Source: Nakamurella sp. PAMC28650 (GTDB taxonomy: Bacteria > Actinomycetota > Actinomycetes > Mycobacteriales > Nakamurellaceae). From it: a stretch of DNA of 64,000 bases. The translations under genes were made by a program, and so were the position numbers. Below the pieces are notes generated by a model that saw only the letters and a program-made list of their open reading frames with translations, was not told the DNA's origin and ran no database searches. This document shows, one piece after another, positions 15,055-30,668 of the stretch (position 1 is its first letter; every line of letters starts with the position of its first letter). The stretch is taken from contig NZ_CP060298.1 in the NCBI RefSeq assembly GCF_014303395.1, positions 2,170,001 through 2,234,000 of the forward strand, read 5' to 3'.

Positions 15055-16400
15055 ATGTCCGCAGCCGGAGCCGGAACCGCGACCCGGCCCACCCTCGCTG
15101 AACTGGTCGCCGACACCGGCACGAGGTTCATCCTGGCCATGTTCGTCGACCTCCGTGGCAAGCCGTGCGCCAAGCTGGTGCCGGCCGAGGCGGTCGACGT
15201 GCTCGCCAGCGAGGGAGCCGGCTTCGCCGGGTACGCCGTCGGGGCCATCGGTCAGGTGCCGAGTGATCCCGATCTGGTCGCCATGCCGGACGTCTCCTCG
15301 TTCACGCCGATCCCGTTCGTCAAACCCGGTCTGGCCCTGGTCCACTGCGATCCGACGGTGCAGGGCACGCCCTGGCCGTTCGCGCCGCGGGTCATCCTGC
15401 GCGCCATGATCGATCGGGCGGCCGCCGCGGGATACGCGCCCTACGTGGGCGCCGAGGTGGAGTACTTCCTGCTGCGGCGGACGGCCGACGGCTCGCTGGT
15501 GACGGCGGACAGCGGCGACAACGCGCCGCAGCCCTGCTACGACGCGCGCGGGCTGACCCGCATGTACGACCACCTGACGACCATCTCGTCGGCGATGAAC
15601 CAGTTGGGCTGGTTCAACTACGCCAACGATCACGAGGACGGCAACGGGCAGTTCGAGCAGAACTTCGAGTACGCCGACGCGTTGACGACCGCCGATCGCG
15701 TGATCACCCTGCGGTACCTGCTGTCGGTGCTGGCCTCCGAACGGGACATGATCGCGACCTTCATGCCGAAGCCGTTCCCGGACCGGACGGGAAGCGGTCT
15801 GCACCTGCATGTCTCGCTGCGCAGCAAGGACGAGGTGGTCTTCCCTGCGGGGCCGGGGCCGATCAGCACGGGCTGGGCCTGTCGCCGACGGCCTACCAGT
15901 TCCTCGGCGGCATCCTGGAACATGCCACCGCACTGCAGCTGCTGATGGCTCCGACCGTCAACTCCTACAAGCGGACGGGTGCGGTCGCGACGACCTCCGG
16001 TGCGACCTGGTCACCGCGGTTCGCCACCTACGGGGGCAACGACCGGACGCACTACATCCGGGTGCCGGACGACCAGCGGATCGAGATCCGCGGCGGGGAC
16101 GGCTCGGCCAATCCCTATCTGGCCATCGCCGGGGTACTCGGCGCCGGTTCGGGCGGCATCGAACGCGCCCTCGATCCGGGCCCACCCGGTGCGGGGGAGC
16201 CGGGGACAAGGCGCCCGCTGCCCCGCACCCTGGTCGACGCCGTCGGGGAATTCGAATCCAGCGAGACGATCTCGGGCGTGATGGACTGCGCCGGGAAGGG
16301 CGTGGCGGAATACTTCGCCTCTCTCAAGCGCGACGAGTTCTACGCCTGGCACAGCGCGATCGGCTCCTGGGAGATCGACAAGTACCTGCAGGCGTTCTGA
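15055..16400 (+). pseudogene. Type III glutamine synthetase (GlnT) / gamma-glutamylmethylamide synthetase (GmaS) family, frameshifted
   Basis: ATP-dependent ligase joining glutamate to ammonia (GlnT) or methylamine (GmaS). Segment one (15055 to about 15858) has the glutamine-synthetase landmarks VGAEVEYFLL, NDHEDGNGQFEQNFEYAD and GSGLHLHVSL. The remainder (NSYKRTGA, RIEIRGGDGSANPYLAIAG, ending EIDKYLQAF at 16400) is in another frame. The break lies at about 15846-15860 in GCGGGGCCGGGGCC; restoring one base gives a continuous protein of about 448 aa, the family length. This is either a true mutation or an assembly error in a G/C run. It heads a cluster with three glutamate-synthase-like subunits, the arrangement of both rhizobial glnT-glx and methylotroph gmaS-mgs clusters, so GmaS and GlnT cannot be separated by eye. 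Confidence 0.85.
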
Positions 16401-16450
16401 TCGAGGTCCTCCACCACACCCACCGCAGCAATCGAGGAAGGGAAACTCCG

Positions 16451-17350
16451 ATGTGCGGGATCGTCGGTCTCCACCTGCGTGATCGGACGCTCTACCCACG
16501 TCTGGGCGAGATGCTCACCGACATGCTGTGCGAGATGCAGGAGCGCGGCGCGGACTCCGCCGGTGTCGCCGTCTACGGCGACCCGACCTGGTCGCCGGTC
16601 GGGCGGTCCACCGTCTCGGTGGTCGACTCCCCGGTGGCCGCTGCGGATCTGGCGATGCTGGTGACCGCGCTCCTGGCCGGACCGGTCCCCGGGGTCGTCA
16701 CCGCGGGGTCGGTGTTGCTGGTCAACGCCCCGGTCGCCCCTGATGCCCTGGTCGCCGCGGTCCGCACCGCTGTGCCGACCGCGCTGATCGTCGGCTACGG
16801 CCGGGATCTGGCCGTGCTCAAGGGCATGGGGCATCCGCGGATGCTGGCCGAGAGCTTCGGGCTGCGCGGAGCTCAGGACTGGCAGGGCGTCGGCCACACC
16901 AGGATGGCCACCGAATCGGCCGTCGACGCCGCCGGGTCGCACCCCTACGCGGTCGGACCCGACCAGTGCCTGGTCCACAACGGATCCTTCGCCAACCACG
17001 CGACCATCCGCCGCCGCCTCGAGGCCAGGGGCATCGCCTTCGAGAGCGAGAACGACACGGAGGTCGGCGCCAGGTTCGTGGCGGCCGCGCTGGCCGACGG
17101 ACTGGACATCGAGACGGCCCTCAAGCAGCTCTGCGTCGAGTTCGACGGCTTCTACACTCTTCTCGTCTCCAGCCACGACTCCTTCGCCGTCGTCCGCGAC
17201 GCCATCGCCTGCAAGCCGGCGATCATCGCCGAGACCGACGGCTGGGTCGCGATGGCCTCGGAATACCGGGCCCTGGCCGGCCTGCCGGGTGTCGCATCGG
17301 CGCGGCTCTACGAACCCGAACCCGAACGGATCTACGCGTGGACACGATGA
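16451..17350 (+). CDS. Class II glutamine amidotransferase subunit (GlxB/MgsA-like)
   Basis: 299 aa Ntn-hydrolase. The nucleophile is Cys2, exposed after removal of Met in MCGIVGLHLRD, and HTRMATESAVD and LVHNGSFANH are the usual substrate-pocket motifs. Such single-domain proteins act with separate GXGXG and FMN glutamate-synthase subunits, as in N-methylglutamate synthase (MgsA) or the rhizobial Glx proteins. In the N-methylglutamate pathway the complex transfers the methylamine group of gamma-glutamylmethylamide to give N-methylglutamate. A GAGGAAGGG sequence precedes the ATG. The stop overlaps the next start as ATGA. In this assembly the gene upstream is frameshifted, which may uncouple supply of its substrate. 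Confidence 0.87.
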   Translation: MCGIVGLHLRDRTLYPRLGEMLTDMLCEMQERGADSAGVAVYGDPTWSPVGRSTVSVVDSPVAAADLAMLVTALLAGPVPGVVTAGSVLLVNAPVAPDALVAAVRTAVPTALIVGYGRDLAVLKGMGHPRMLAESFGLRGAQDWQGVGHTRMATESAVDAAGSHPYAVGPDQCLVHNGSFANHATIRRRLEARGIAFESENDTEVGARFVAAALADGLDIETALKQLCVEFDGFYTLLVSSHDSFAVVRDAIACKPAIIAETDGWVAMASEYRALAGLPGVASARLYEPEPERIYAWTR

Positions 17351-18084
17351 CGACGGCGGCGGGCCCCGATACCGGTGAAAGCGCCTCGGGCCCTCTCGTT
17401 CTCGATCTCGAGCAGATGACGCTGCGCGAGGTGAACGCGCTCCTGCACAGCGGTGACCTCGCCTCCGGCGCCGGCTCGGCACCGGTGGTGATCACCCACC
17501 CGGCGGGTGCACACAGCGTGGCGGTGGGCCTGGACGCGCCGCTGGAGGTCACCGTCCAGGGCCACGTCGGCTACTACGCCGCTGGGATGAATCAGCAGGC
17601 CACCGTCGTGATCGACGGCAACGCCGGCACCGGCGTCGCCGAGAACATGATGAGTGGCTCGGTCGTGGTGCACGGCAACGCCTCCCAGTCCGCCGGTGCC
17701 ACCGCGCACGGCGGGTTGCTGGTGATCAGGGGGGACGCCTCGGCACGCTGCGGCATCTCGATGAAGGGCGTGGACATCGTCGTGGGCGGCAGCATCGGTC
17801 ACCTGTCGGCGTTCATGGCGCAGGCCGGGCGTCTCGTGGTGCGCGGTGATGCCGGAGAGGCGTTGGGGGACTCCATCTACGAGGCCCGGCTGTACGTCCG
17901 CGGCACGGTGGCCTCGCTCGGGGCCGACTGCGTGGCCAAACCGATGGGCCCGGAACACCACGCCGAACTGGCCGAGCTGCTGTCCGCGGCCGGGTATCCG
18001 CAGGACAGCACGGGCGAATACACCCGCTACGGCTCCGCCCGGCGGCTCTACCACTTCCACGCCGACAACGTCGCCGCGTACTAG
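17347..18084 (+). CDS. GXGXG-domain glutamate synthase subunit (GlxC/MgsB-like)
   Basis: 245 aa. A right-handed beta-helix with repeated glycine turns is visible across residues 70-200 (GHVGYYAAGMNQQ, GNAGTGVAENMMSG, GNASQSAGATAHGG, GDASARCGISMKG, GDAGEALGDSIYEA). This matches the C-terminal structural domain of large glutamate synthase expressed as a separate protein. It is thought to bridge the amidotransferase and FMN subunits. The ATG at 17347 overlaps the previous stop by 4 bp; a GTG 9 nt upstream is possible but would be in the same frame and make little difference. Confidence 0.87.
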   Translation: MTTAAGPDTGESASGPLVLDLEQMTLREVNALLHSGDLASGAGSAPVVITHPAGAHSVAVGLDAPLEVTVQGHVGYYAAGMNQQATVVIDGNAGTGVAENMMSGSVVVHGNASQSAGATAHGGLLVIRGDASARCGISMKGVDIVVGGSIGHLSAFMAQAGRLVVRGDAGEALGDSIYEARLYVRGTVASLGADCVAKPMGPEHHAELAELLSAAGYPQDSTGEYTRYGSARRLYHFHADNVAAY

Positions 18085-18116
18085 TCGACCTCACCGAGCA
18101 CCAGGGCAGGAACAAC

Positions 18117-19448
18117 ATGACCTTCGACCCCGCCGAGCGCGGACTGCGCGAGTCGGCCACCTTCGACCGGGCCGTCATCCACGACATCCAACGGGCCGCC
18201 GCCACCGGTGTCTACGACATCCGCGGGTGGGGGGCCAAGCGCCGGATCCCCCACTTCGACGACCTGCTCTTCCTGGGGGCCAGCATCTCCCGCTACCCGC
18301 TCGAGGGGTATCGCGAGAGCTGCGGCACCGACGTCGTTCTCGGCGCCCGCAACGCGAAGTACCCGCTGCACCTAAATATACCGGTGACGATCGCCGGGAT
18401 GAGCTTCGGTGCGCTGTCCGGCCGGGCCAAGGAGGCGCTGGGGCGCGGGGCCACGGAGGCCGGCACGTCCACCACCACCGGAGACGGCGGCATGACGGCC
18501 GAGGAACGCGATCAGAGCAAACATCTGGTCTACCAGTACCTCCCGTCCCGCTACGGGATGAACCCGATCGACCTGCGCAAGGCCGACGCCATCGAGATCG
18601 TGCTCGGCCAGGGGGCGAAGCCCGGTGGCGGCGGCATGCTGCTGGGCCAGAAGATCACCGACCGGGTGGCCGGCATGCGCACCCTGCCGGCGGGGATCGA
18701 CCAGCGGTCGGCGTCCCGCCATCCCGACTGGACCGGCCCGGACGACCTGACGATCAAGATCCGCGAGCTGCGCGAGATCACCGACTGGGAGAAGCCGATC
18801 TACGTCAAGGTCGGCGCCTCGCGCACCTACTACGACGTCAAGCTCGCGGTGCACGCCGGCGCGGACGTGGTCGTCGTCGACGGGATGCAGGGCGGGACGG
18901 CCGCCACCCAGGACGTGTTCATCGAGAACGTGGGCATCCCCACGCTCGCCGCGTTGCCCCAGGCGGTGCAGGCACTGCAGGAACTCGGTGTGCACCGCGA
19001 GGTCCAGCTGATCATCTCCGGAGGGATCCGGTCGGGTGCCGATGTGGCCAAGGCCCTCGCACTCGGGGCCGACGCCGTCTCCATCGGGACCGCTGCGCTG
19101 ATCGCTCTGGGGGACAACGATCCAGTGCATGCCGCCGAGTACGAGGCGCTGGGCTCGGCCGCCGGCTTCTACGACGACTTCCAGGACGGACGCGACCCGG
19201 CCGGGATCACCACGCAGGACCCCGACCTGCAACTGCGGCTGGACCCGGTCGCGGCCGGACACCGACTTGCGAACTACCTGCGGGTGCTGACCATGGAGGC
19301 GCAGACGATAGCGCGCGCCTGCGGCAAGTCCCACGTGCAGCACCTGGAGCCGGAGGACCTGGTCGCGCTGACCATCGAATCCGCTGCGATGGCCCGGGTT
19401 CCGCTGGCCGGGACGTCGTGGATCCCCGGCTCGAACGGCGGGTTCTGA
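18117..19448 (+). CDS. FMN-binding glutamate synthase family protein (GlxD/MgsC-like)
   Basis: 443 aa FMN-dependent TIM-barrel enzyme of the glutamate synthase central domain. Motifs include IAGMSFGALSGRAKEALGRGA, STTTGDGGMT, QGAKPGGGGMLLG, VKVGA, VVVDGMQGGTAATQ, and LIISGGIRSGADVAKALALGADAV, the last being the phosphate-binding region of the FMN site. It is the catalytic redox subunit of the presumed three-subunit synthase. It lies 32 nt after the GXGXG gene with AGGGCAGGA as Shine-Dalgarno. Whether it makes glutamate or N-methylglutamate cannot be decided from sequence alone; the flanking sarcosine-oxidase-like gene favours N-methylglutamate. Confidence 0.88.
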   Translation: MTFDPAERGLRESATFDRAVIHDIQRAAATGVYDIRGWGAKRRIPHFDDLLFLGASISRYPLEGYRESCGTDVVLGARNAKYPLHLNIPVTIAGMSFGALSGRAKEALGRGATEAGTSTTTGDGGMTAEERDQSKHLVYQYLPSRYGMNPIDLRKADAIEIVLGQGAKPGGGGMLLGQKITDRVAGMRTLPAGIDQRSASRHPDWTGPDDLTIKIRELREITDWEKPIYVKVGASRTYYDVKLAVHAGADVVVVDGMQGGTAATQDVFIENVGIPTLAALPQAVQALQELGVHREVQLIISGGIRSGADVAKALALGADAVSIGTAALIALGDNDPVHAAEYEALGSAAGFYDDFQDGRDPAGITTQDPDLQLRLDPVAAGHRLANYLRVLTMEAQTIARACGKSHVQHLEPEDLVALTIESAAMARVPLAGTSWIPGSNGGF

Positions 19449-19488
19449 TCGAGTCGGCCGGCACCTCGGGTGGCGTCGGTGGTCCGGG

Positions 19489-20139
19489 ATGACCGACGTC
19501 GATCCGTTGCTGCGCAACATCGCCGGCTCGACCAGCGAACGGCGCCCAGGGCAGGACATCGAGCCGGACCCGCTGGAGATGGCGATCGGGCGCAACGTGC
19601 GGGCGCTGCGACTTTCATCCGGCCTGTCGGTGGGCGAGATGGCTGCCCGGATCGGCATTTCCAAGCCCATGCTCTCCAAGATCGAGAACGCCCAGACCTC
19701 CTGCAGCCTGTCCACCCTGAGTGCCCTGTCGAAGGGGTTGGACGTCCCCGTGACGTCGTTGTTCCGGGGTGCGGACAATCGCCGCGAGGCGGTCTTCGTG
19801 CCGGCCGGGACGGGGCCGGCGATCATGCGGAACGGCACCAGGGAAGGCCACCTCTACGAGTCGCTCGGGGCCCTGCGCGGCCAGCACCAACGGCTGGAAC
19901 CGCTGCTGGTGACGCTGACCGCCGAGAGCGAGACGTTCCCCCTGTTCCAGCATCCCGGTACGGAGCTGATCTACCTGCTGGAGGGCGAGATGAGCTATGG
20001 GCACAGCCATTCTGTCTACGCCCTGACACCGGGTGATGCCCTGCTGCTGGACGGCGAGGGCCAGCACGGGCCGACCGCACTGACCCGGTTGCCGATCCGG
20101 TTCCTGTCGATCGTGGCGTTCCCGGACGTGCCGGGCTGA
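19489..20139 (+). CDS. XRE-type HTH-cupin transcriptional regulator
   Basis: 216 aa. An N-terminal helix-turn-helix spans about residues 28-85 (NVRALRLSSGLSVGEMAARIGISKPMLSKIE, given in part). A cupin_2 sensor domain follows at about 130-205 (FPLFQHPGTELIYLLEGEMSYGHS, ALTPGDALLLDGEGQHGP). Regulators of this architecture sense small metabolites through the cupin and often control neighbouring amine or amino-acid catabolic genes. It starts 40 nt after the FMN subunit and ends 19 nt before the flavin oxidase, so it appears to be part of the same operon and may autoregulate it. Confidence 0.87.
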   Translation: MTDVDPLLRNIAGSTSERRPGQDIEPDPLEMAIGRNVRALRLSSGLSVGEMAARIGISKPMLSKIENAQTSCSLSTLSALSKGLDVPVTSLFRGADNRREAVFVPAGTGPAIMRNGTREGHLYESLGALRGQHQRLEPLLVTLTAESETFPLFQHPGTELIYLLEGEMSYGHSHSVYALTPGDALLLDGEGQHGPTALTRLPIRFLSIVAFPDVPG

Positions 20140-20158
20140 TCCGGCTCCCAGACGTTGC

Positions 20159-21337
20159 ATGACGAAAGGTGTTGCTCGCGTGGGTACTTCGGAGTACGTG
20201 GTGATCGGGGCCGGGCTGGCCGGATCGGCGACCGCGTGGAATCTGGCGCGCCGCGGCCACGAGGTGACCCTCGTCGAGCGAACGCGGCCGGCCGCCCCGG
20301 ACGGCAGCTCGCACGGCTCCGCGCGGATCTTCCGGTACGCCTATCCGGACGCCTTCTACGCCGCTCTGGTCGCCTCGGCCCGTTCCCGGTGGGAGGAGTT
20401 GGAACAGCTGGCCGGTCGAAGACTGATCACCCCGACCGGATCGCTGGATTTCGGCGAATCCCGCAACCCGTCCCAGCTCGCCGGTGTGTTGGAGGCGGTC
20501 GGGGTGGAGCACGAGCTGCTCGCCGCCGCTGCCGCTCGCGCCCGTTGGCCACAGATCGCCGTCGACACGGAGGTCCTGTGGCACCCCGAGGCGGGCGTCA
20601 TCGACGCGCAGGAGTCGGTGAACGCCATGGTCGACCTGGCCCGTCGGGCCGGCGCGGAGATCCTGACCGACTGGCCCGTCACCGTGGTGCAGGCCACCGC
20701 GACCGGGTACCGGGTGCTCTCCCCGGACGGCGAGCCTCTGGACTGCGCAAAGGTGGTCGTCAGCGCCGGTGGGTGGCTGCCCCAACTGCTCGGTTCTCTG
20801 CCGTTGCCGGCCGACTTCCGGGAGAGCGTGCCGCCGCTGCAGGTACGTCAGGAACAGGCCTACCACTTCCCGTACCGCGAGTCGGCTGCGGAGCCCGGCC
20901 CCGCGGAGGCTGACCCCCGGCCGTGGCCGACGGTGATCCACAAGAACCCGGGCATCTCCACCTACAGCCTGCCCGGCGGGCGGGACGCCGCCTTCCGCGG
21001 GCAGAAGCTGGCCGAGTACAACGCGGGCCGGATCATTTCCGGTGCCGCCGCCCAGACCGGAACTGTGGACGCCGCCAATCGGGCGCGGATGGTGGACTAC
21101 GCGATCCGGTACCTGCCGGGCGTCGTCCCCGAGCCCTACGCCGAGACCACCTGCCTGTTCACCAACACCCCGACCGAGGACTTCATCATCGACGAGTGGG
21201 ACGGCATCACGCTGCTGTCGCCCTGCTCCGGGCACGGGGCCAAGTTCGCCCCGCTGCTCGGCGAGATCGCGGCCGATCTCGCGACCGGGGTGCGGGCGCC
21301 GGCCGAACGGTTCCGGCTCCGCAGCCGCGCCCGCTGA
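20159..21337 (+). CDS. Monomeric sarcosine oxidase / N-methyl-amino-acid oxidase family flavoenzyme
   Basis: 392 aa FAD-dependent oxidoreductase. The dinucleotide-binding motif VVIGAGLAGSATAWNLA is at residues 14-30, and SSHGSARIFRYAYPD follows at about 50. The family signature FTNTPTEDFIIDEWDG precedes SPCSGHGAKFAPLLGE, where Cys356 corresponds to the cysteine that binds flavin covalently in monomeric sarcosine oxidase. Such enzymes oxidise N-methyl groups to formaldehyde and a primary amine. In this operon the expected substrate would be N-methylglutamate, doing with one subunit what methylotrophs do with four (MgdABCD); that is inference. Sarcosine, N-methyltryptophan or pipecolate are alternatives. 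Confidence 0.87.
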   Translation: MTKGVARVGTSEYVVIGAGLAGSATAWNLARRGHEVTLVERTRPAAPDGSSHGSARIFRYAYPDAFYAALVASARSRWEELEQLAGRRLITPTGSLDFGESRNPSQLAGVLEAVGVEHELLAAAAARARWPQIAVDTEVLWHPEAGVIDAQESVNAMVDLARRAGAEILTDWPVTVVQATATGYRVLSPDGEPLDCAKVVVSAGGWLPQLLGSLPLPADFRESVPPLQVRQEQAYHFPYRESAAEPGPAEADPRPWPTVIHKNPGISTYSLPGGRDAAFRGQKLAEYNAGRIISGAAAQTGTVDAANRARMVDYAIRYLPGVVPEPYAETTCLFTNTPTEDFIIDEWDGITLLSPCSGHGAKFAPLLGEIAADLATGVRAPAERFRLRSRAR

Positions 21338-21355: not shown

Positions 21356-21439
21356 GATCAGCCTGCACCGATCAGCCTGCACCGATCAGCCTGCACCGAT
21401 CAGCCCGCATCGATCAGCCCGGGTCGATCAGTCGGTCAG
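21356..21439. repeat. Tandem repeat, 14 bp unit, about six copies
   Basis: The unit GATCAGCCTGCACC begins at 21356, 21370 and 21384, with degenerate copies at 21398, 21412 and 21426. It fills the gap between the convergent oxidase and solute-binding-protein genes and reaches the latter's stop codon. No transposase or promoter is apparent. Confidence 0.9.
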
Positions 21440-22392
21440 CCCAGGCCGTTGGCCTTGATCCAGGTCTTGGCGACGGCATCTGGATCGGTGCCGCCGTAGA
21501 CCTGCTTGTCCAGCGCGGTCAGGGTCGCGGTGTCGAGCTTGGCCGAGACCGCGTTCAGCGCGGACGTGATGGTGGGGGTGACCTTCTTGGAGGAGATCAG
21601 CGGCAGCACGTTCTGCGCCGTGTAGAGGTTCTTGGGGTCCTGGAGCAGCACGAACTTGTACGCCGGGACCGCGGGATCGGTGGTGAACAGGTCGGCTGCG
21701 TCGATCTGGCCGTTCTTCAGGGCGGCGACGGTGAGCGGCCCGCCGGAGTCGAGGGTCTTGAACGTCTGGAACGTGACGCCGTAGGTGCTCTTGAGGCCGG
21801 CGACCCCGTCGGCCCTGGTCTTGAACTCGGGGCCGGCGCCGATGATCAGGCTGCCCGCGTGGGCGGCCAGGTCGGCGATCGTCTTGAGGCTGTACTTGGC
21901 GGCGGTGGCCGCGGACACCGCGATGGCGTCCTTGTCCTGGGCCTGCGACTGGGCCAGCACCTCGAGGCCGGACGGCTTGAGGACGGCCGGCAGGGCCGCG
22001 TAGATGTCGGCCGAGCTGGCGGCCTTCGACGTCGTGTCGACATAGGCCAGCAGCGTGCCGCTGTACTCGGGGATGAGGTCGATCGAGCCGTCCTTGATGG
22101 CCGGGATGTAGACCTCCCGGGCGCCGATCTTGGGCTTCGTCGTCACCGTGATGCCCTTGGCCCGCAGGGCCTCCGCGTAGACGTCCATCAGCAGGACGCT
22201 CTCCGCGAAGTTGGCCGAGCCGATGGTGATCGAGCCACCACCGGCGGCCGGGGCCGGGGACCCGGCGGCGGGGGCCGAGGAGACACTGGACGAGGAAGCG
22301 GCGCTGCCGGTCGAGCTGGAACTGCCACAGGCCGTGACCGCGAGGGCAGCGGCGGCGATGGCCCCGACGAAGGCCAGGTGGGTGCGATTCAT
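21436..22392 (-). CDS. Quaternary-amine ABC transporter substrate-binding lipoprotein (OpuBC/ProX type)
   Basis: 318 aa lipoprotein. The signal peptide MNRTHLAFVGAIAAAALAV ends in a lipobox with the lipid-anchored Cys (VTAC). A Ser/Ala linker follows, then the OpuAC-type domain with SANFAESVLLMDVYAEAL, GAREVYIPAIKDGSIDLIPE and YSGTLLAYVD. Family members bind glycine betaine, choline, carnitine or, in some species, ergothioneine. The ATG at 22392 is preceded by AAGGAGAA; upstream in-frame codons are not part of the gene. It is the last gene of a minus-strand operon after one ATPase and two permeases, separated by 136 bp. Confidence 0.9.
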   Translation of the reverse strand: MNRTHLAFVGAIAAAALAVTACGSSSSTGSAASSSSVSSAPAAGSPAPAAGGGSITIGSANFAESVLLMDVYAEALRAKGITVTTKPKIGAREVYIPAIKDGSIDLIPEYSGTLLAYVDTTSKAASSADIYAALPAVLKPSGLEVLAQSQAQDKDAIAVSAATAAKYSLKTIADLAAHAGSLIIGAGPEFKTRADGVAGLKSTYGVTFQTFKTLDSGGPLTVAALKNGQIDAADLFTTDPAVPAYKFVLLQDPKNLYTAQNVLPLISSKKVTPTITSALNAVSAKLDTATLTALDKQVYGGTDPDAVAKTWIKANGLG

Positions 22393-22528
22393 TCTCTGTT
22401 CTCCTTCTGCAGGACCGACTCGATGCCGGCCTCTGGACGGACGTGCTGGTGGACCGATCTGCCGCTCCACCAGGGAGTCCCGGTGACGACGGCTACTGTG
22501 CCATGCAATGACTGCCATCCCGTGACGG

Positions 22529-23368
22529 TCAGCGCACCGAATCTGGGCGGAGTCCGGGCCGTCTGGGCTGCTGGGCGACCACTTCCGAGATGACCTTCTC
22601 CGGTTCCGGGGCCATGACCGGCTGCGATCCGGCCAGCACAGTGGAACGCCGGTAGCGCCCGGTGATTCCCCGGGACGTCGTGTAGCGCTGGATCGTGGCC
22701 AAAATGAAATCAATGGCCAGCGCCAGCACGGCCACCAGGAGCGCCCCGCCGAGGAGCTGACCGGTGGCGGCACGGCTGGGGTCGGTGTCCTGGAAGGGTC
22801 CCTGCTGGAACCCGTCGTAGATGGGCCGGCCCAGGCCGCCGAGCCCGATGTAGGCGCCCACCGTCGCGGTGGCGATCACCTGCAGGCTGGCGCTCCGCAA
22901 ACCCGACATGATCAGCGGGAACGCGTTCGGCAGTTCGACGGACGTCAGCACCTGACGGCCCGTCATGCCCATCCCCTTCGCGGCGTCGCGGATCGCCGGA
23001 TCCACGGACTGCACGCCGGCGTAGGTGTTGGACAGGATCGGCGGGACCGCCAGCAGGACCAGCACGATCTCGACCGGGATGATGTAGACGGCATTGCTCC
23101 GACCGTGGAAGTGCGGCGACAGGACGATGAACAGCAGCACCATCAGGCCGAAGGTCGGCAGGGCCCTTGTCGCGTTGACCGAACCGACCACGAACGTTCC
23201 GCCCTTCCCGGTGTGCCCGATCCAGAGGCCCAACGGGAACGCGATCAGCGACGCGATCACGATGGCGATCACCGAGTACTCGACCTGGTCGAGGATGTTC
23301 GTCCAGAGCCCGGCCTGGCCGCCCCAGTTCGTGCCGGTGCTCAGGTAGGTCCACATGGCACCGATCAT
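22529..23368 (-). CDS. Quaternary-amine ABC transporter permease (OpuB/ProW type) 1
   Basis: 279 aa membrane permease with about six transmembrane helices. NATRALPTFGLMVLL and the EAA-type loop DPAIRDAAKGMGMTGRQVLTSVELPNAFPLIMSG (given here as a region, residues about 135-168) contact the ATPase. VIATATVGAYIGLGGLGRPI is the typical ProW ending. The ATG at 23368 overlaps the stop of the other permease by 4 bp (ATGA). It pairs with that permease to form the channel for the OpuBC-like binding protein. A proline-rich cytoplasmic tail of about 35 residues extends the C-terminus. Confidence 0.88.
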   Translation of the reverse strand: MIGAMWTYLSTGTNWGGQAGLWTNILDQVEYSVIAIVIASLIAFPLGLWIGHTGKGGTFVVGSVNATRALPTFGLMVLLFIVLSPHFHGRSNAVYIIPVEIVLVLLAVPPILSNTYAGVQSVDPAIRDAAKGMGMTGRQVLTSVELPNAFPLIMSGLRSASLQVIATATVGAYIGLGGLGRPIYDGFQQGPFQDTDPSRAATGQLLGGALLVAVLALAIDFILATIQRYTTSRGITGRYRRSTVLAGSQPVMAPEPEKVISEVVAQQPRRPGLRPDSVR

Positions 23369-24018
23369 GTTTTCGGCACCGCCCGCAGCCACGGGGTGAG
23401 GGCTCTGGTGGCGAACTGGATGGCGAAATCCAGCACCAGCGCGAGCACGATGCACAGGACGATGCCCAGCAGGATGGGGCTGCTCTGGTCGGTGCCCGCC
23501 GAGAACCCGTCGGAGAACAGCGTGCCCAGTTGGGACGTACCGATCAGGGTGGCCACCGTGACGAGGCTGACGTTGGACACGGTCGCGACCCTGACGCCGG
23601 CCGCGATCACCGGTACGGCCAGCGGGAGCTCGACCGCGAAGAAGCGGCCCAATGGCTTGTAGCCCATCGCGGTCGCCGCCTGCTTCGCGTCGGCCGGGAC
23701 CGAGGCCAGCCCGTCGGCGACCACGCGGACCAGGAGGGCGACCGCGTACGCGGCCAGCGCGACGATGACGTTGACCACGTCGAGGATCTGGGTGCCGAGG
23801 ATGCCGGGCATGGCCACGAACAACACCAGCGACGGGATGGTGTAGATCAGACCGGCGACGCTGATCAGCGGGGGATAGGCCCATTTGAACCGGGCCGCCA
23901 CCCAGCCCAGCGGAAGAGCGATGATCAGCCCGATGATCACCGGGATGACCGCCAGCTGCACGTGTGACCAGAGCTCGGCCATGATCTCGCTCCGGTGTCC
24001 GGTGAAGTAGGCGAACAT
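23365..24018 (-). CDS. Quaternary-amine ABC transporter permease (OpuB/ProW type) 2
   Basis: 217 aa, the usual size of OpuBB/OpuBD permeases, with about six membrane helices. Motifs: VAGLIYTIPSLVLFVAMPG and the EAA loop AKQAATAMGYKPLGRFFAVE, then VSNVSLVTVATLIGTSQLG. Its ATG overlaps the ATPase stop by one base (TGATG), so translation is probably coupled. The sequence differs clearly from the companion permease, consistent with a heterodimeric channel. Confidence 0.9.
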   Translation of the reverse strand: MFAYFTGHRSEIMAELWSHVQLAVIPVIIGLIIALPLGWVAARFKWAYPPLISVAGLIYTIPSLVLFVAMPGILGTQILDVVNVIVALAAYAVALLVRVVADGLASVPADAKQAATAMGYKPLGRFFAVELPLAVPVIAAGVRVATVSNVSLVTVATLIGTSQLGTLFSDGFSAGTDQSSPILLGIVLCIVLALVLDFAIQFATRALTPWLRAVPKT

Positions 24019-25148
24019 CAGCCGCGGACCGCCGGCTCGACGGCCCGGCTCGCGGCGGCCTTGGCCTCGATGCGCGCGACCACGTCGGCGGTCGTGACGG
24101 TGCCGAGCAGACGGGAGGACTCGTCCACCACGACGCCCCGGCCGGACGGCGAGGACAGGGCCGCGTCCAGGGTGTTGCGCAGGGTTCCCCCCTCGGTGGC
24201 CAGGGTGCCGCCCAGGTTCAGCAGCGCGGGGGAGATCTGCGTGCTGCCGTCATAGCTGCCGTGGTTGACGTTCAGCCAGCCCTGCGGTGAGTTGGCGGTG
24301 TCGACCACCAGCACCCAGCCGTCTTCGGCGACGCGCACGGCCTCGGCCACCGTGCCACCCAGGGCAATCGTCGGCTCCGTGCGCAACGGCACCGTGTCGT
24401 TCTCGAAGCCGAGCGCGCGGTATCCGCGATCCCGACCGACGAAACCGGCGACGAAGGCGTTGGCCGGGCGGGACAGCAGTTCGGCGGGGGTGGCCAGCTG
24501 GGCCAGGATGCCGCCGACGTTGAGCACGGCCACCTGGTCGCCGAGTTTGATCGCCTCGTCGATGTCGTGCGTGACGAAGACGATGGTCTTCCCCAGCTCC
24601 GACTGCAGCCGCAGGAATTCCTGCTGCAGCTGCTCACGCACCACCGGGTCGACCGCGGAGAACGGTTCGTCCATCAACATGACGGGAGGGTCGGCAGCCA
24701 GCGCGCGAGCCACACCGACGCGCTGCTGCTGACCGCCGGAGAGCTGGGCCGGGTACCGGCCGGCGAACCTGGCCTCCAGCCCCACGCGTTCCATCAGTTC
24801 CATCCCCCGGGCCCTTGCCTTCTTCTTGTCCTGCCCGAGCAGGCTGGGGACCGTCACGATGTTGTCCAGGATGGTGCGGTGCGGGAACAGGCCGGCGTGC
24901 TGGATGACGTACCCGATCCCACGGCGCAGCGTGGCCGGGGCGACCTTGCCGGTGTCCTGGTCGTCCATCCAGATCGTGCCGCCGGTCGGCTCGATCATCC
25001 GGTTGATCATCCGGAGGGAGGTGGTCTTGCCGCATCCGGAAGGGCCGACGAACACGGTGATCTGTCCGGACGGGGCGGTCAGGCTCAGCCCGTCGACCGC
25101 TACCGTTCCGTCGGGGTACTTCTTCGTCACGTCGTCGAACCTGATCAT
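24018..25148 (-). CDS. Quaternary-amine ABC transporter ATP-binding protein with CBS domain (OpuBA/ProV type)
   Basis: 376 aa ATPase that energises uptake. Walker A is GPSGCGKTTS (residues about 33-42), the Q-loop YVIQHAGLFPHRTI, the ABC signature LSGGQQQR, Walker B VMLMDEP, and the switch His in VFVTHDIDEAIKLGD. The C-terminal 130 residues form a CBS-type regulatory region; in OpuA this part senses ionic strength, so osmotic gating is possible. It is the first transporter gene, about 130 bp downstream of the IclR gene on the same strand. Compatible-solute uptake alone is an alternative to a catabolic role. Confidence 0.93.
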   Translation of the reverse strand: MIRFDDVTKKYPDGTVAVDGLSLTAPSGQITVFVGPSGCGKTTSLRMINRMIEPTGGTIWMDDQDTGKVAPATLRRGIGYVIQHAGLFPHRTILDNIVTVPSLLGQDKKKARARGMELMERVGLEARFAGRYPAQLSGGQQQRVGVARALAADPPVMLMDEPFSAVDPVVREQLQQEFLRLQSELGKTIVFVTHDIDEAIKLGDQVAVLNVGGILAQLATPAELLSRPANAFVAGFVGRDRGYRALGFENDTVPLRTEPTIALGGTVAEAVRVAEDGWVLVVDTANSPQGWLNVNHGSYDGSTQISPALLNLGGTLATEGGTLRNTLDAALSSPSGRGVVVDESSRLLGTVTTADVVARIEAKAAASRAVEPAVRG

Positions 25149-25275: not shown

Positions 25276-26076
25276 TCATCCGGTCGACCTCATGGACGCT
25301 CTGGCACCGACGACCCGTGCCGGGTGCGCCGGGTGCGACGGCACGGTGAACCGCCCGCTCAGTGCCCTTGCCTCCGTACTGACCAAACGTCCGATCACCG
25401 CCGCCTGCGCGCCATCCACACGGTAGGCGGGACCCACGACAGAGAGAACGGCAATCGTCTCGACACCCTGCTCCCCGGTGTCGGAGGGGAAGGCCGGCCG
25501 GTGCACAGGGGCCGCGATGGCGGTGACGTCCGGCTCGACCGCGGACCGCATGACCACGAACCCTTCAGCAGGCACGTCGCCCCGGAAGGCCGCCCCGGCC
25601 GCCGTGCCGCGGAGCGGGATGCTGCGCCCGACCCAGCTCGTGTGACGCACCGAGTGCAGGCCCTCGACCATCCCGGCGTAGACCGCGCTGTCGGTGGGGC
25701 CGGGGAGGCAGAGGTAGGCGGATTCGCCGCAACCCTGGACGATCCGTCGAAGCGCCGGCTCGGCCGCCCCGACCAGGGATTGTCGGCTCAACGCCGCCGC
25801 GCCGAGTTGGATCAGACGCGGCCCGGCGCGGAAGAGTCCGCGATCGTCGCGGATGATCAGGTGCGATGTCTCCAGCGTGCGCAGCAGGCGGAGGGCGGTG
25901 CTCGCGGCGAGGCCGGAACGCCGTGCGCACTCGGCCAGCCCGATCCCGCCCTGGTCGCAGACCTGCGCCAGCAGTTCCATCGCCCGCTCGACGGCCCGGG
26001 TGGAGGAGACCGGGCCGGCGGCCGTGTGCTCGCTCCGGACGGGGTGCTCGCCGGCCGGTGAAGAGAAGTTGCTCAA
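25276..26076 (-). CDS. IclR-family transcriptional regulator
   Basis: 266 aa. An N-terminal winged helix-turn-helix lies at about residues 28-85 (RAVERAMELLAQVCDQGG, GLAECARRSGLAASTALRLLRTLE in part), followed by the GAF-like effector domain (VEGLHSVRHTSWVGRSIPLRGTAAG). IclR proteins usually repress or activate catabolic genes next to them. The start TTG at 26076 follows GTGAGG; it is the best start that keeps a normal N-terminus. The gene is divergent from the lyase at 26196 and precedes the transporter, so it is placed to control both. Confidence 0.86.
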   Translation of the reverse strand: MSNFSSPAGEHPVRSEHTAAGPVSSTRAVERAMELLAQVCDQGGIGLAECARRSGLAASTALRLLRTLETSHLIIRDDRGLFRAGPRLIQLGAAALSRQSLVGAAEPALRRIVQGCGESAYLCLPGPTDSAVYAGMVEGLHSVRHTSWVGRSIPLRGTAAGAAFRGDVPAEGFVVMRSAVEPDVTAIAAPVHRPAFPSDTGEQGVETIAVLSVVGPAYRVDGAQAAVIGRLVSTEARALSGRFTVPSHPAHPARVVGARASMRSTG

Positions 26077-26195: not shown

Positions 26196-27776
26196 ATGTC
26201 CGCGGGCGATGGTGCGATGACGACGAAACGGAATGGCAACGTGACCACTGGAGCAGGCAGCAGGGCCCGCGGCGGGCGCGGCCTCGAACTGGACGGGATG
26301 TCGCTGACGACGGGACAGATCGACGGCGCCGCCCGTGGACGCACACCGATCGGGCTGAGCGAGGTGGGCCTGGCCAGGGCCGCGGCGTCCCAGCAGTTCG
26401 CCGACACCGTCGCCCGCCGCCGCGCCGTCTACGGACGATCGACGGGGGTCGGGGCCAACCGGACGGTCCGGGTCACCGGTGACCAGGCCGCTCACGTCCT
26501 GGCGCTGCTGCGCAGCCACGCCACCTCGGCCGGCGAGGCCAGGTCGGCCGAGCGGGTCCGCGCGATGCTGGTGATCCGTCTGAACCAGCTGGCCACCGGA
26601 GGCAGCGGGGTGGATCCCGGTGTGCTGGACGGGTTGCTCGCCATGATCAACGCCGACGCCCTGCCCGACGTGCGTGAGCTCGGCAGCATCGGAACGGGTG
26701 ACCTGTCGGCCCTGGCCACCACCGCGCTGGCCCTGATGGGGGAGGAGCCGACCACGGCTGCGCTGCCGTCGTCGACGTCCTTCGGGCCCACCGACGGGCT
26801 GGCCTTCATCTCCAGCAACGCGGCCACGCTCGGCGATGCAGCCCTGGCGGTGTCATCCCTGGCCGAGTCCGCCCGGGCCGCTCTGGTGATCGCCGCCCTC
26901 ACCTTCCACGCCGTCGGCGGCAACGCTGAGGCCTACTCCGCCGCCGTGCTGCTGGCGACGCCGTTTCCCGGCGCGGCCGAGGTCTGCGCTGTGCTCCGCG
27001 AGATGGTCGGCTCCGATCCGTCCGGGGTCCGCGTCGACGACACGGGACTGGTCCTCCAGCCCGCCCGGATCCAGGACCCGTTCGGTCTGCGCGCGTTGCC
27101 CCAGGTCCACGGCCCGGTGCTGGACCAGTTGAGCAACGCGACCGCCGTCGTCGATGCGCTGGCGAACGCGCCGACCGAGAACCCGGTGTTCCTCGCCACG
27201 GCCACCGGGTCCGGAGGTGGGCCGGACGGCGGGCTGGTGGCCCACCACGCCGGGTTCCACATGGCCTACCTGCAGATCGCGCTGGACTCGCTGGGCTTGG
27301 CGGTCGCGCAGAGCGCCCAACTCGTGATGGCCAGGATGGCGACCCTGATCGAGCCGGGTCTGAGCTCGCTGCCACCCTTCCTTGGTGACGGGACCGCGGG
27401 CGCGTCGGGTGTGATGGTCTGCGAGTACGTCGCCGCTTCCGCAGCCGGGGCGATCCGGGCCGGTGCCGTGCCGGCCGGCCTGCAGACCGCGACGTTGTCC
27501 CGCGGGGTGGAGGAGGACGCCAGTTTCGCGTCCCTGTCGGCGGTGCAGTGTCTGCACATCGCCGAGCGCTACCGCCAGTTGCTCGCCTGCGAGCTGGTCG
27601 TCGCCGTGCGGGCGAACCGCATGCAGCGCCGGACCCCGGCCGGGCGGATCGCCGAGGCGCTCCGGGTCTGCACGCCCCTACCGGCCGGTCTCGAGGACCG
27701 CAACCTGACGACCGACCTGACGATGGCCGGCGACCTCATCCCGGCCCTGGCGGCCCTGGTCGACGGCGATCGTTGA
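26196..27776 (+). CDS. Histidine/aromatic ammonia-lyase homologue lacking the MIO tripeptide
   Basis: 526 aa of the HAL/PAL fold. Recognisable landmarks: Tyr79 in YGRSTGVG (HAL has YGxNTGFG), QDPFGLRALPQVHG, ENPVF, PFLGDG and SRGVEEDASF (HAL SxGQEDHVS region). The prosthetic-group site is altered: HAL has GS-(V/L)-G-ASG-D-L, whereas residues 163-170 here read GSIGTGDL. The Ala-Ser-Gly that cyclises to MIO is missing and the loop is one residue short. The NGT of the HAL active site is replaced by SSN near 206-208. Classical ammonia elimination is therefore unlikely. MIO-independent homologues that eliminate trimethylamine (ergothionase) exist as far as I recall, and the betaine transporter next door makes that chemistry attractive. 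The exact start is uncertain (ATG at 26217 also possible). Confidence 0.85.
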   Translation: MSAGDGAMTTKRNGNVTTGAGSRARGGRGLELDGMSLTTGQIDGAARGRTPIGLSEVGLARAAASQQFADTVARRRAVYGRSTGVGANRTVRVTGDQAAHVLALLRSHATSAGEARSAERVRAMLVIRLNQLATGGSGVDPGVLDGLLAMINADALPDVRELGSIGTGDLSALATTALALMGEEPTTAALPSSTSFGPTDGLAFISSNAATLGDAALAVSSLAESARAALVIAALTFHAVGGNAEAYSAAVLLATPFPGAAEVCAVLREMVGSDPSGVRVDDTGLVLQPARIQDPFGLRALPQVHGPVLDQLSNATAVVDALANAPTENPVFLATATGSGGGPDGGLVAHHAGFHMAYLQIALDSLGLAVAQSAQLVMARMATLIEPGLSSLPPFLGDGTAGASGVMVCEYVAASAAGAIRAGAVPAGLQTATLSRGVEEDASFASLSAVQCLHIAERYRQLLACELVVAVRANRMQRRTPAGRIAEALRVCTPLPAGLEDRNLTTDLTMAGDLIPALAALVDGDR

Positions 27777-27777
27777 C

Positions 27778-27829
27778 GTCAGGCCATGACGTCAGGCCAT
27801 GTCGTCAGGCCATGTCGTCAGGCCATGTC
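27778..27829. repeat. Tandem repeat, 13 bp unit, four copies
   Basis: GTCAGGCCATGTC-type units begin at 27778, 27791, 27804 and 27817. They fill the short space between the convergent lyase and dioxygenase genes, and the last unit contains the dioxygenase stop codon. Confidence 0.9.
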
Positions 27830-28498
27830 GTCCAGCGGGCGCAGTTCGTCGGCGTAGGACACCGACCGGCGGCGGAGCATTCCACTGTGGCTGACCGTGT
27901 ACTGACCCATCCGCCAGAGCGGCGGTGAGTAGGCGTGGATCGACACGCTGCCGGCGTCGCGGCCGGTCAGCCGGTGGATGTGGTCCGGACCGAAGGCGAA
28001 GACGAGGCCGGCCGGGACGTCGGTGGACATGCTCGGTGCACCGACGGCGAGGTTGTGCTCGGTGAGCGTCCCCTGGGTGACTGCAACGGCCCCCGATGAG
28101 ATGTCGTGGTCGTGCCAGCCGGTGTCGCTGCGGGGGGTCCAGCACAGCAACCACACGTCGACGTGGGTGTCGCGATGGAGCGAGACGTAGTGCCGCTGGT
28201 CATCTGAGAAGGCGACGTGCCCGGCCCAGCGCCCGGGTTCGGCGGCGACCGAGGCGGCCAGTTCGGCGAGCTCGTCCGCCCCGAGGTCGCGTCCCGGAAG
28301 GTTCTCCAGCGTCAGACCGGCCACCCCGTCGGCGCGGCGGGCGCCGGCGACGACGTCGGAGATCGACACAGCGCCGCTGACCGGCCGCCCCTCGGTGGAG
28401 GGCAGGGTGATGATCGTCGCCACCGTGTCCGGCAGATGATCGAGCAGGCGGTCCGGCTGTGCGGGCGGAGCGGTGGCGATGACGGCGGGAACGGTCAT
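27818..28498 (-). CDS. Cysteine dioxygenase family (cupin thiol dioxygenase) protein
   Basis: 226 aa with the cysteine/3-mercaptopropionate dioxygenase cupin. The iron-binding pair is in GWHDHDISSGAVAV (His129, His131) and the third His is in DHIHRLTG (His173 or His175). SIHAYSPPL supplies the tyrosine (Tyr190) near the active site. Such enzymes add O2 to a thiol to give a sulfinate. Its ATG overlaps the amidohydrolase stop by 4 bp, so both are expressed from the promoter near 29.45 kb. In a thiol-betaine breakdown route it could oxidise the sulfur of a thiourocanate-like intermediate; this is inference, and plain cysteine or mercaptopropionate are alternatives. Confidence 0.85.
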   Translation of the reverse strand: MTVPAVIATAPPAQPDRLLDHLPDTVATIITLPSTEGRPVSGAVSISDVVAGARRADGVAGLTLENLPGRDLGADELAELAASVAAEPGRWAGHVAFSDDQRHYVSLHRDTHVDVWLLCWTPRSDTGWHDHDISSGAVAVTQGTLTEHNLAVGAPSMSTDVPAGLVFAFGPDHIHRLTGRDAGSVSIHAYSPPLWRMGQYTVSHSGMLRRRSVSYADELRPLDDMA

Positions 28499-29406
28499 GA
28501 CGGGCCTCCTTCGAGCAGGCGGGTGGGGTTGGCGACGCGGACCGCATGCGTGGCGGCTTCGCCCATGCGGAGGTCGGTCGGGCCGGCGTAGGGCCGGTCG
28601 GTGCCGTTGACGATGACGTCGATCCCGAGCACCCGGATCAGCGCGTCCAGCGCCCTCGTCCCGTACGACGACGTCTCGACGAAGGTCAGCCGGTCGATCG
28701 GTGGCGGGTTTCCACCCCCGCGGATGTGGAAGCGCTCGTGGTGGATCGGGGCCAGTCCGGCGCCCGCGGCGAAGCAGATCCGCAGCGTCGGGAGCAGTGC
28801 CCGGCCGGTGGCCTGCCAGGACCACCAGGCGGCGGTCAGCTGGGAGGTGTAGTCCACGACGGCCGGCCACCAGGCGGGAAACTCCTCGCCGTCCGCGGCC
28901 CGGGCGGACGGACCGGGGTGGACCAGAACGGGCCGGCCGGCCTCCTCGCAGACCCGTAGAACGGGGGCGAGGCGCTCGATGGCGGCCGGGGTCAGCATCG
29001 AGGTCGCCGGCACCTGGAGCCCGACGAATCCGCCGGCGAGCAGGTCGGTCAGGTCGGCGAGGTCCGGCTCGGTGGCGTGGACGGAGGCCCAGGCCCCGAA
29101 CGGCGCCGGCAGGGCCGCCGCTCCCCGGTGCCAGGCATCCAGGAGCGGTCGGGCGACGTCCGGATGGAGCGATTCGATGCCGAGGGGACTCGACAGCGAC
29201 ACCAGGGCCAGCGCCAAATCGCCGTCGAGTTCCCGCCGGGCCCGCAGATCGTGGTCGGCCGGCTGGACGTCGTAGGGCGGCTCGCCGGGGAGGGTCAGCC
29301 GCCACCCGGACAGTCGGGGATCCGTGTCGGAGTTGCGCAGGGCGTCGATCAGCGCGGACGGCCACAGGTGTTGGTGGACGTCGATGACGCCGGAGAGTCT
29401 GGTCAT
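28495..29406 (-). CDS. Amidohydrolase family protein (TIM-barrel, ACMSD-like)
   Basis: 303 aa. The metal-binding HxH is in VIDVHQHLWP (residues 7-16), a second His lies in VLVHPGPS, and the conserved late Asp appears in VIVNGTDRPYAG. This layout fits amidohydrolase_2 proteins, which include decarboxylases (ACMSD type) and lactone or imidazolone-type hydrolases. The substrate is unknown. The stop overlaps the dioxygenase start (ATGA). It reads divergently from the LacI regulator, with the twin operator between them, so its expression is probably under that regulator. Confidence 0.78.
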   Translation of the reverse strand: MTRLSGVIDVHQHLWPSALIDALRNSDTDPRLSGWRLTLPGEPPYDVQPADHDLRARRELDGDLALALVSLSSPLGIESLHPDVARPLLDAWHRGAAALPAPFGAWASVHATEPDLADLTDLLAGGFVGLQVPATSMLTPAAIERLAPVLRVCEEAGRPVLVHPGPSARAADGEEFPAWWPAVVDYTSQLTAAWWSWQATGRALLPTLRICFAAGAGLAPIHHERFHIRGGGNPPPIDRLTFVETSSYGTRALDALIRVLGIDVIVNGTDRPYAGPTDLRMGEAATHAVRVANPTRLLEGGPS

Positions 29407-29475: not shown

Positions 29476-29633
29476 CAAGCATGCTGTCAAGCTCGTGGAG
29501 GCAGAAACATTCCGGTCACACGACTGAGATCGACTCGTCATGCCGCCGAATGCCCATCGGGGCAATTGCTGCGGCAGGGGGGCGGCGCCGCGATCTGGAC
29601 CCCGCTGTCGGCTCGACCCGATACCGTTGTCCG

Positions 29634-30668
29634 ATGACCGAGCGCCGTCGCCGGCCGACCCTGAAGGACATCGCGGAGGAGACCGGTCTGTCCCCGGCCG
29701 CCGTGTCCTATGCCCTGCGTGGTCTCCAGGTGCCGGTCCAGACCCAGGACCGGGTCCGCGAAGCCGCCGAGCGTCTCGGTTACCGCGGCGATCCGATCGC
29801 CCGGGCCCTGGCCTCCGGCCGCACCGGGAACGTCGGACTGCTCTGCGGCTCGCTGGAGGACGTCTGGCAGCAGAGCGTCGCGGCGGCCCTCGGCCGTGGA
29901 CTGCTGGCCGCCGGGCGACAGGCGCTCATCGTCGACGCCTCCAACAATCCCGAGCAGGAACGCAGGCTGGCCGCCCAACTGGTGGACCAGCGGGTGGATG
30001 CACTGATCGCGATGCCGATCGACCCACGAGCAGCCCATTGGGCCGGGATCGCCGAGCGCGTGGTGCTGGTGTCGATCGGTGACGGTCTGCCGGGTGCAGC
30101 CACCGCGGCCGAGGTCGTGTTCGACAACGAGGCGGCCGTCGCCGACGCGCTGCGGGAACTGGCCGACGCGGGTCACCGGCGGATCACGGTACTGACGTCG
30201 ATGGCGGCCAGCACCCCAGATCGGCCGGCCGAAGCCGTCGTGCACCGGGTGGCGCCCACCCTCGGGGTGCAGGCCAGGTTGCTGACTGCTCCGCACGACC
30301 TGAGCGGTGCGACCGCCGTGGCACTGCGGATGCTGCGGGTCGCCGATCGTCCGACCGCCGTCCTCTGTCTCTCCGACTCGCTCGCCTACGGCGTGTACGC
30401 GGCGGCCAGGGAGCTCGGCCTCGAGCTCCCTGCCGACCTGTCCGTGATGGGCTTCGACGACCACCCCCTGTCCGGCCTGCTCACTCCGGCACTGTCCAGC
30501 TACCGGTGGCCGGTGGAAGAACTCGTCAGCGCCGTGGTTCAGCGCACCGTCGAGGCCATCGAGACCGGCAGCACCGGTCGTCGCCGGGTCCTGGTCGCCC
30601 AACCGCGTCGTCGCGGCTCGGTTGGTCCGCCCCGCGCGACGGATCCCTCTGCGGGACCGCGGAACTGA
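29634..30668 (+). CDS. LacI-family transcriptional regulator
   Basis: 344 aa. The N-terminal HTH and hinge helix are clear: TLKDIAEETGLSPAAVSYALRG (residues 8-29, shown in part) and VREAAERLGYRGDPIARALASGR. The rest is a periplasmic-binding-like sensor (VDALIAMP, VVFDNEAAVADALRELADAGHRRITVL, VMGFDDHPLSGLLTPALSS), although LacI proteins usually sense sugars. Here the neighbours are a dioxygenase and an amidohydrolase, not sugar genes. The ATG at 29634 is used because the HTH starts only 8 residues later. A matching double operator lies 160 bp upstream. Confidence 0.9.
   Translation: MTERRRRPTLKDIAEETGLSPAAVSYALRGLQVPVQTQDRVREAAERLGYRGDPIARALASGRTGNVGLLCGSLEDVWQQSVAAALGRGLLAAGRQALIVDASNNPEQERRLAAQLVDQRVDALIAMPIDPRAAHWAGIAERVVLVSIGDGLPGAATAAEVVFDNEAAVADALRELADAGHRRITVLTSMAASTPDRPAEAVVHRVAPTLGVQARLLTAPHDLSGATAVALRMLRVADRPTAVLCLSDSLAYGVYAAARELGLELPADLSVMGFDDHPLSGLLTPALSSYRWPVEELVSAVVQRTVEAIETGSTGRRRVLVAQPRRRGSVGPPRATDPSAGPRN

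Follow-up and report, generated by a model that had tools for sequence, protein, structure and literature searches.

Two described enzymes stand closest to the protein considered here: histidine ammonia-lyase (HAL, or HutH; Pseudomonas putida, PDB 1b8f and 1gkj) and the ergothionase of Treponema denticola (PDB 6s7j and 6s7q), which converts ergothioneine to thiourocanate and trimethylamine. The lysines of ergothionase are reportedly catalytic, a point that goes back to Maurer et al. in 2019. Nalivaiko and colleagues are said to have described a route in which ergothioneine dioxygenase yields ergothioneine sulfinic acid, which a metal-dependent desulfinase turns into hercynine and SO2. Ergothionase has no MIO, as a passage of PMC13405746 states, and the absence of MIO within the superfamily is therefore already known and not new in itself. 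Ergothioneine may also be acted on by a MIO enzyme, as is hinted by Vibrio natriegens, in which deletion of hutH led to less ergothioneine loss, according to PMC13276445. A literature search on ergothionase, hercynine degradation and MIO loss, which covered open PMC papers and not subscription papers, returned reviews, the EgtU paper and PMC13405746, and no paper naming a hercynine lyase.

Here, we describe HALx, a MIO-less homologue of the aromatic amino acid lyases encoded in a 64,000-nucleotide stretch of DNA from the soil actinobacterium Nakamurella sp. PAMC28650, the whole of which is referred to as the window. Its sequence and surroundings indicate that HALx is probably a MIO-free trimethylamine-lyase, with hercynine (N-alpha-trimethylhistidine, histidine betaine) as its most likely substrate. 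On balance, we also lean towards the wider reading that HALx represents an undescribed hercynine trimethylamine-lyase of many actinobacterial genera, which would be free of MIO as its leaving group is quaternary, and which would link aerobic ergothioneine breakdown to the Hut pathway.

The HALx gene and its product

The HALx open reading frame (26196..27776, plus strand) encodes 526 amino acids without internal stops, and its GC content by codon position (0.73/0.56/0.90) matches that of a real high-GC gene. Translation may in fact begin downstream of 26196, since the first 28 or so residues are unconserved and residues 1-24 have a pLDDT below 50 in the structure model. Over its full length, the protein matches PF00221 (Lyase_aromatic; E = 9e-93; 311.8 bits against a gathering score of 27.3), which places it in the aromatic amino acid lyase superfamily. 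The genome, a single contig (C1) of 5.63 Mb, has three PF00221 genes, including a canonical HutH at C1:4913431-4914813, whose loop reads GSLGCSGDL with the CSG triad. The third paralogue (L003; L042:8786-10450; C1:735924-737360) has the loop GSGSAGEI, QGV for NGT and no MIO triad; it adjoins a gene of the ornithine cyclodeaminase family, and a MIO-less lyase of Polaromonas (L127) is also close to one.

The preliminary description of this DNA had read HALx residues 163-170 (26682..26705, plus strand) as GSIGTGDL, a loop one residue short and missing Ala-Ser-Gly, and had noted SSN in place of NGT, which falls at residues 206-208 (26811..26819, plus strand). These readings are borne out by the open reading frame and by alignment with HAL, and so are the features that it listed as kept: Tyr79 (26430..26432, plus strand), the equivalent of the HAL catalytic tyrosine; the QDPxxxRxxPQVxG block, found as QDPFGLRALPQVHG at 293-306; and the downstream ED motif (E439-E440-D441). 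The SGxM and QED-like segments of HAL are likewise retained. Compared with HutH, both that of P. putida and that of its own genome, HALx is alike in fold, Tyr79, H108, R299, SGxM and E439, but it lacks A/C-S-G and has SSN for NGT.

Conservation was followed over 96 aligned rows, made up of the window, the 15 others of alignment A1 and 80 loci from a contig scan with patterns from A1; the scan gave at least 591 stretches, at least 574 of them relatives, and these were narrowed down to the best 80, with N. silvestris counted twice (as L026 and L047). All 96 rows, including these best 80 of at least 574 relatives, have the loop pattern xxGT[G/A][D/E], and none has an A/C-S-G-D triad. As this loop form is common to every row, a local sequencing error or frameshift is ruled out. 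Residues 206-208 are SSN in 94 rows, NSN in one and SSS in one; Y79, H108, Q293, D294, R299, H350, F354, E410, Y411 and E439 are each present in 96/96 rows, R81 in 95 and M407 and R89 in 92.

A plain HutH is excluded by the missing triad together with the NCBIfam cut-offs, below which HALx falls well short (246.9 against 539.15 for TIGR01225; 248.2 against 524 for NF006871). The HAL fold and the HAL-like residues could also be read as those of an inactive paralogue, or of a protein that has remained a histidine ammonia-lyase; we regard this as highly improbable, as the MIO triad occurs in 0/96 rows, the active-site residues are invariant across many genera and the genome already possesses a canonical HutH with CSG.

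Relationship to ergothionase

An AlphaFold2 model of HALx built with 31 sequences (mean pLDDT 88.2, pTM 0.89; less confident in loop 161-170, with a mean pLDDT of 77) has the HAL/ergothionase fold. The Foldseek scores of P. putida HAL and 6s7j are near-equal (26% and 22% identity, respectively, with equal TM-scores), so that the model, while confirming the fold, is silent on the substrate. With phmmer, HALx is closer to the HAL 7tqr (2e-44) than to 6s7j (4e-21), and by whole-protein similarity it is no nearer to ergothionase than to HAL.

Ergothionase had been suggested as a comparison enzyme in the preliminary description, and the choice was apt: the solved enzyme, also MIO-less on a HAL fold, shows the same one-residue shortening of the loop (SSIGEGDI against GSIGTGDL), has S-x-N for NGT (SCN against SSN) and shares GVGxN[K/R] after Tyr-Gly. 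These features, and the position of HALx on the ergothionase side of the tree, speak for the main rival of the hercynine reading, namely that HALx is a true ergothionase releasing thiourocanate and trimethylamine from ergothioneine, with the dioxygenase and desulfinase as a parallel route. We consider this unlikely. Glu410-Tyr411 of HALx (27423..27428, plus strand), present in all 96 rows, stands at the place of Gln-Lys in 6s7j and of Gln/Glu-x in HutH, so that the Ile-Gln-Lys of ergothionase becomes x-Glu-Tyr and its Lys (K383) is Tyr411 throughout; the place of Lys63 of 6s7j is taken by Arg in 92 of the 96 rows. As a class rule for ergothionases, the IQK Lys appears weak; of the four rows in the ergothionase group, that of S. 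meliloti has Val-Glu-Ala and also lacks it.

A tree of 29 rows, 16 of them HALx and 4 from the ergothionase group, gives each of the two a clade with 100/100 support; HALx lies not within the ergothionase clade but beside it as a separate sister, the two being joined at 92/97 when all columns are used. With the active-site columns removed (27 rows), HALx and the ergothionase group are set against HutH and L021/L023 at 97/95. As the tree is unrooted and PAL/TAL are almost unsampled, a single loss of MIO is likely rather than established.

Several further MIO-less forms were encountered. L021 (G012) and L023 (L041:9224-10774, G002), of the same genus as the window, have GSVGY followed by LTATA, with the whole ASGD deleted, and a PF00221 match of 536 bits; both genomes carry the dioxygenase and are without HALx. 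L125 (S. meliloti pSymA), L126 (Paracoccus saliphilus) and L127 (Polaromonas) are ergothionase-like, MIO-less proteobacterial plasmid proteins with the same shortened loop. An apparent signal peptide is seen by eye in L125 and L126, and the Paracoccus gene is located at the end of a complete hut cluster.

Genomic neighbourhood

On the 3′ side, HALx is followed by a dioxygenase gene, an Amidohydro_2 gene and a LacI-family regulator gene (29481..30668, plus strand; homologue in 38 of the best 80 loci from at least 574 relatives). The dioxygenase gene (27818..28498, minus strand; CDO_I, PF05995) is convergent with HALx. The best solved match of its product by phmmer is an ergothioneine dioxygenase (8qfr/8qfl; E 3e-62), and by Foldseek it is 61% identical to PDB 8qfl-8qfr, entries titled 'Ergothioneine dioxygenase from Thermocatellispora tengchongensis'. 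Its H188 and Y190, at the places of the H147A and Y149F variants of the solved enzyme, are invariant in 26 rows; judged by sequence, the product is a close match to the solved ergothioneine dioxygenase in which the H147/Y149 residues are kept. The genome has a second gene of this kind at C1:2325087-2325581, 79% identical to the window copy.

The start of the dioxygenase gene overlaps by 4 bases the end of the gene for an Amidohydro_2, ACMSD-like metal-dependent protein (28495..29406, minus strand), which we take to be the ergothioneine sulfinic acid desulfinase, with hercynine as its product. The protein, whose matches to the metal-dependent ACMSD decarboxylases are distant (best E 4.5e-4), is a natural candidate for this role. 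Were HALx an ergothionase, these two adjacent enzymes would take the thiol off its substrate first, which argues against that rival. The proximity of a sulfinate-forming dioxygenase, and an ergothioneine sulfonate pathway cited in PMC13405746, could instead mean that the substrate of HALx is the sulfinic or sulfonic acid of ergothioneine, trimethylamine leaving before desulfination. This seems very improbable, given that the desulfinase-like gene overlaps the dioxygenase gene and that the additional Lys which could hold a sulfonate, K383 in 6s7j, has no counterpart in HALx.

On the other side, beyond a divergent IclR-family regulator (25276..26076, minus strand), the minus strand carries a four-gene quaternary-amine ABC system comprising a betaine/choline-type ATPase (24018..25148), two permeases of the choline/ProW type (23365..24018 and 22529..23338) and an OpuAC-type substrate-binding protein (21436..22560), the starts of the second permease and of the binding protein being uncertain. 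The nearest solved relatives of the binding protein include EgtUC and ProX, a likeness that adds to the case for an ergothionase. In EgtUC, E375 and R379 contact the imidazole and the carboxylate, as described in PMC9732360; the corresponding places hold Glu in 61 of 63 rows and Arg in 63/63. The binding protein is nevertheless not an EgtUC orthologue, because the cation cage residues N339, Y341 and Y443 are replaced by Asp, Asp and Gln, and from its sequence it probably takes a ligand related to that of EgtUC, in a pocket of different construction.

Just upstream, at 15055-21337, the window contains genes of the methylamine or N-methylglutamate type (glnT, mgsABC-like, XRE-cupin and SolA-like), with an apparent frameshift in glnT near 15.9 kb, noted by eye. 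This methylamine pathway (glnT-mgs-SolA, 15-21 kb) was considered as a partner of HALx and dropped, mgsC and SolA not being beside HALx in relatives.

Distribution among relatives

HALx homologues were found in 17 of the 61 genomes searched, at 42-68% identity and E ≤ 7e-65, the next best match being at 1e-43. Across these 61 relatives, the dioxygenase (E 1e-60 or better) occurs in 19, that is, in 15 of 17 with HALx and 4 of 44 without, and the Amidohydro_2 protein (E 1e-80 or better) also in 19 (14 of 17 with and 5 of 44 without); the Fisher p values for co-occurrence with HALx, kinship ignored, are 6e-9 and 3e-7, respectively. The dioxygenase is missing from the HALx genomes G019 and G046, the Amidohydro_2 protein from these and G053, while G002, G008, G011 and G012 have the dioxygenase and no HALx.

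In 16 regions around HALx (L024-L039), the ABC ATPase is nearby in 13 and the dioxygenase in 9. Among the best 80 loci of at least 574 relatives, the ATPase is found near HALx in 52, the binding protein in 49, the dioxygenase in 36, the Amidohydro_2 protein in 27, the LacI regulator in 38 and HutH in 14; 22 of the 80 have a urocanase no more than 10 kb away, and 57 carry one or more of ATPase, dioxygenase, Amidohydro_2 and urocanase. With one urocanase per genome of several Mb, we estimate that a chance urocanase neighbour would be expected at fewer than 1 in 100 loci. In the Arthrobacter locus L044, a single strand carries IclR, ATPase, permease, permease, binding protein, urocanase and HALx in this order, and the relatives G004, G027, G040, G049 and G057 have their urocanase less than 15 kb from HALx; in the window genome, the sole urocanase is about 2.7 Mb away. 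In Lentzea loci, L078 among them, the surroundings of HALx are of another kind, conserved but lacking importer, dioxygenase and urocanase.

This last type bears on another alternative, that HALx is a lyase for some other betaine or methylated amino acid with no tie to ergothioneine. Nearly full flanks are available for 57 of the best 80 loci of at least 574 relatives; of these 57, 18, largely from Lentzea, have none of ATPase, dioxygenase, Amidohydro_2 and urocanase nearby, and the importer pocket is unlike that of EgtUC. Such a substrate is nonetheless improbable, considering the strong linkage of HALx with the dioxygenase, and elsewhere with urocanase, and the retention of the imidazole-binding residues of HAL.

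Urocanase is present in 17/17 HALx genomes, against 65/101 genomes searched overall, as one gene in each (split in two pieces in G046), and hence no second, thiourocanate-type urocanase was seen in these 17. The single urocanase, and the ordinary hutH-hutU genes that adjoin HALx loci, weigh further against HALx being an ergothionase.

The EgtD histidine methyltransferase family (PF10017) is represented in 37 of the 61 genomes, including 7 of the 17 with HALx. It is absent from the window genome, which fits scavenging. Within the same genus, it occurs in 0/7 HALx genomes and in 3/4 genomes that have the dioxygenase but no HALx. This suggests that in the genus of the window HALx accompanies scavenging and not synthesis, although HALx and EgtD co-occur elsewhere.

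Proposed route and its significance

The route that we infer for HALx, including its substrate and products, the roles of single residues, the desulfinase assignment and the importer ligand, would begin at the neighbouring ABC system, with uptake of a quaternary amine that is most probably ergothioneine. Oxidation by the dioxygenase would convert ergothioneine to ergothioneine sulfinic acid, from which the Amidohydro_2 protein would remove SO2 to leave hercynine. HALx would then split hercynine into urocanate and trimethylamine, and HutU and the later Hut enzymes would carry urocanate to glutamate. In the active site, Tyr79 may take the beta proton, H108, E439 and M407 may hold the imidazole as in HAL, and R299 may bind the carboxylate, while the walls formed by GTGD and SSN would leave room for three methyl groups. 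MIO would not be needed because a quaternary ammonium, which lacks the lone pair required for an attack on MIO, is already a good leaving group. The preliminary description had foreseen a kept scaffold with an active site rebuilt for a different elimination; the ergothionase-like loop and S-x-N, the HAL/ergothionase fold and neighbours that point to a betaine all support that view.

If this is correct, HALx supplies the step after hercynine in aerobic ergothioneine degradation, joining it to ordinary histidine breakdown, and accounts for a widespread lyase family to which automatic annotation would give the name histidine ammonia-lyase. It would also be a second case in which MIO was given up for a betaine substrate, and soil would be predicted to have a new biological trimethylamine source.

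Comparison with known systems

The EgtU importer (EgtUC; PDB 7txl and 9egh) and the ABC system of the window have in common a binding protein of the OpuAC type that carries Glu and Arg at the E375/R379 places, but they differ in the cage residues and in that the permeases and the binding protein of the window are separate. The actinobacterial ergothioneine dioxygenase pathway finds its likeness here in a dioxygenase 61% identical to the solved enzyme and overlapped by a metal-hydrolase gene; HALx would add the next step after hercynine. From T. denticola ergothionase, at 22% identity by Foldseek and in a separate clade with 100% support, HALx is set apart by a predicted substrate without sulfur. 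By the sequence features compared, HALx appears to be neither an ergothionase nor a histidine ammonia-lyase, although its proposed mode of working is that of ergothionase.
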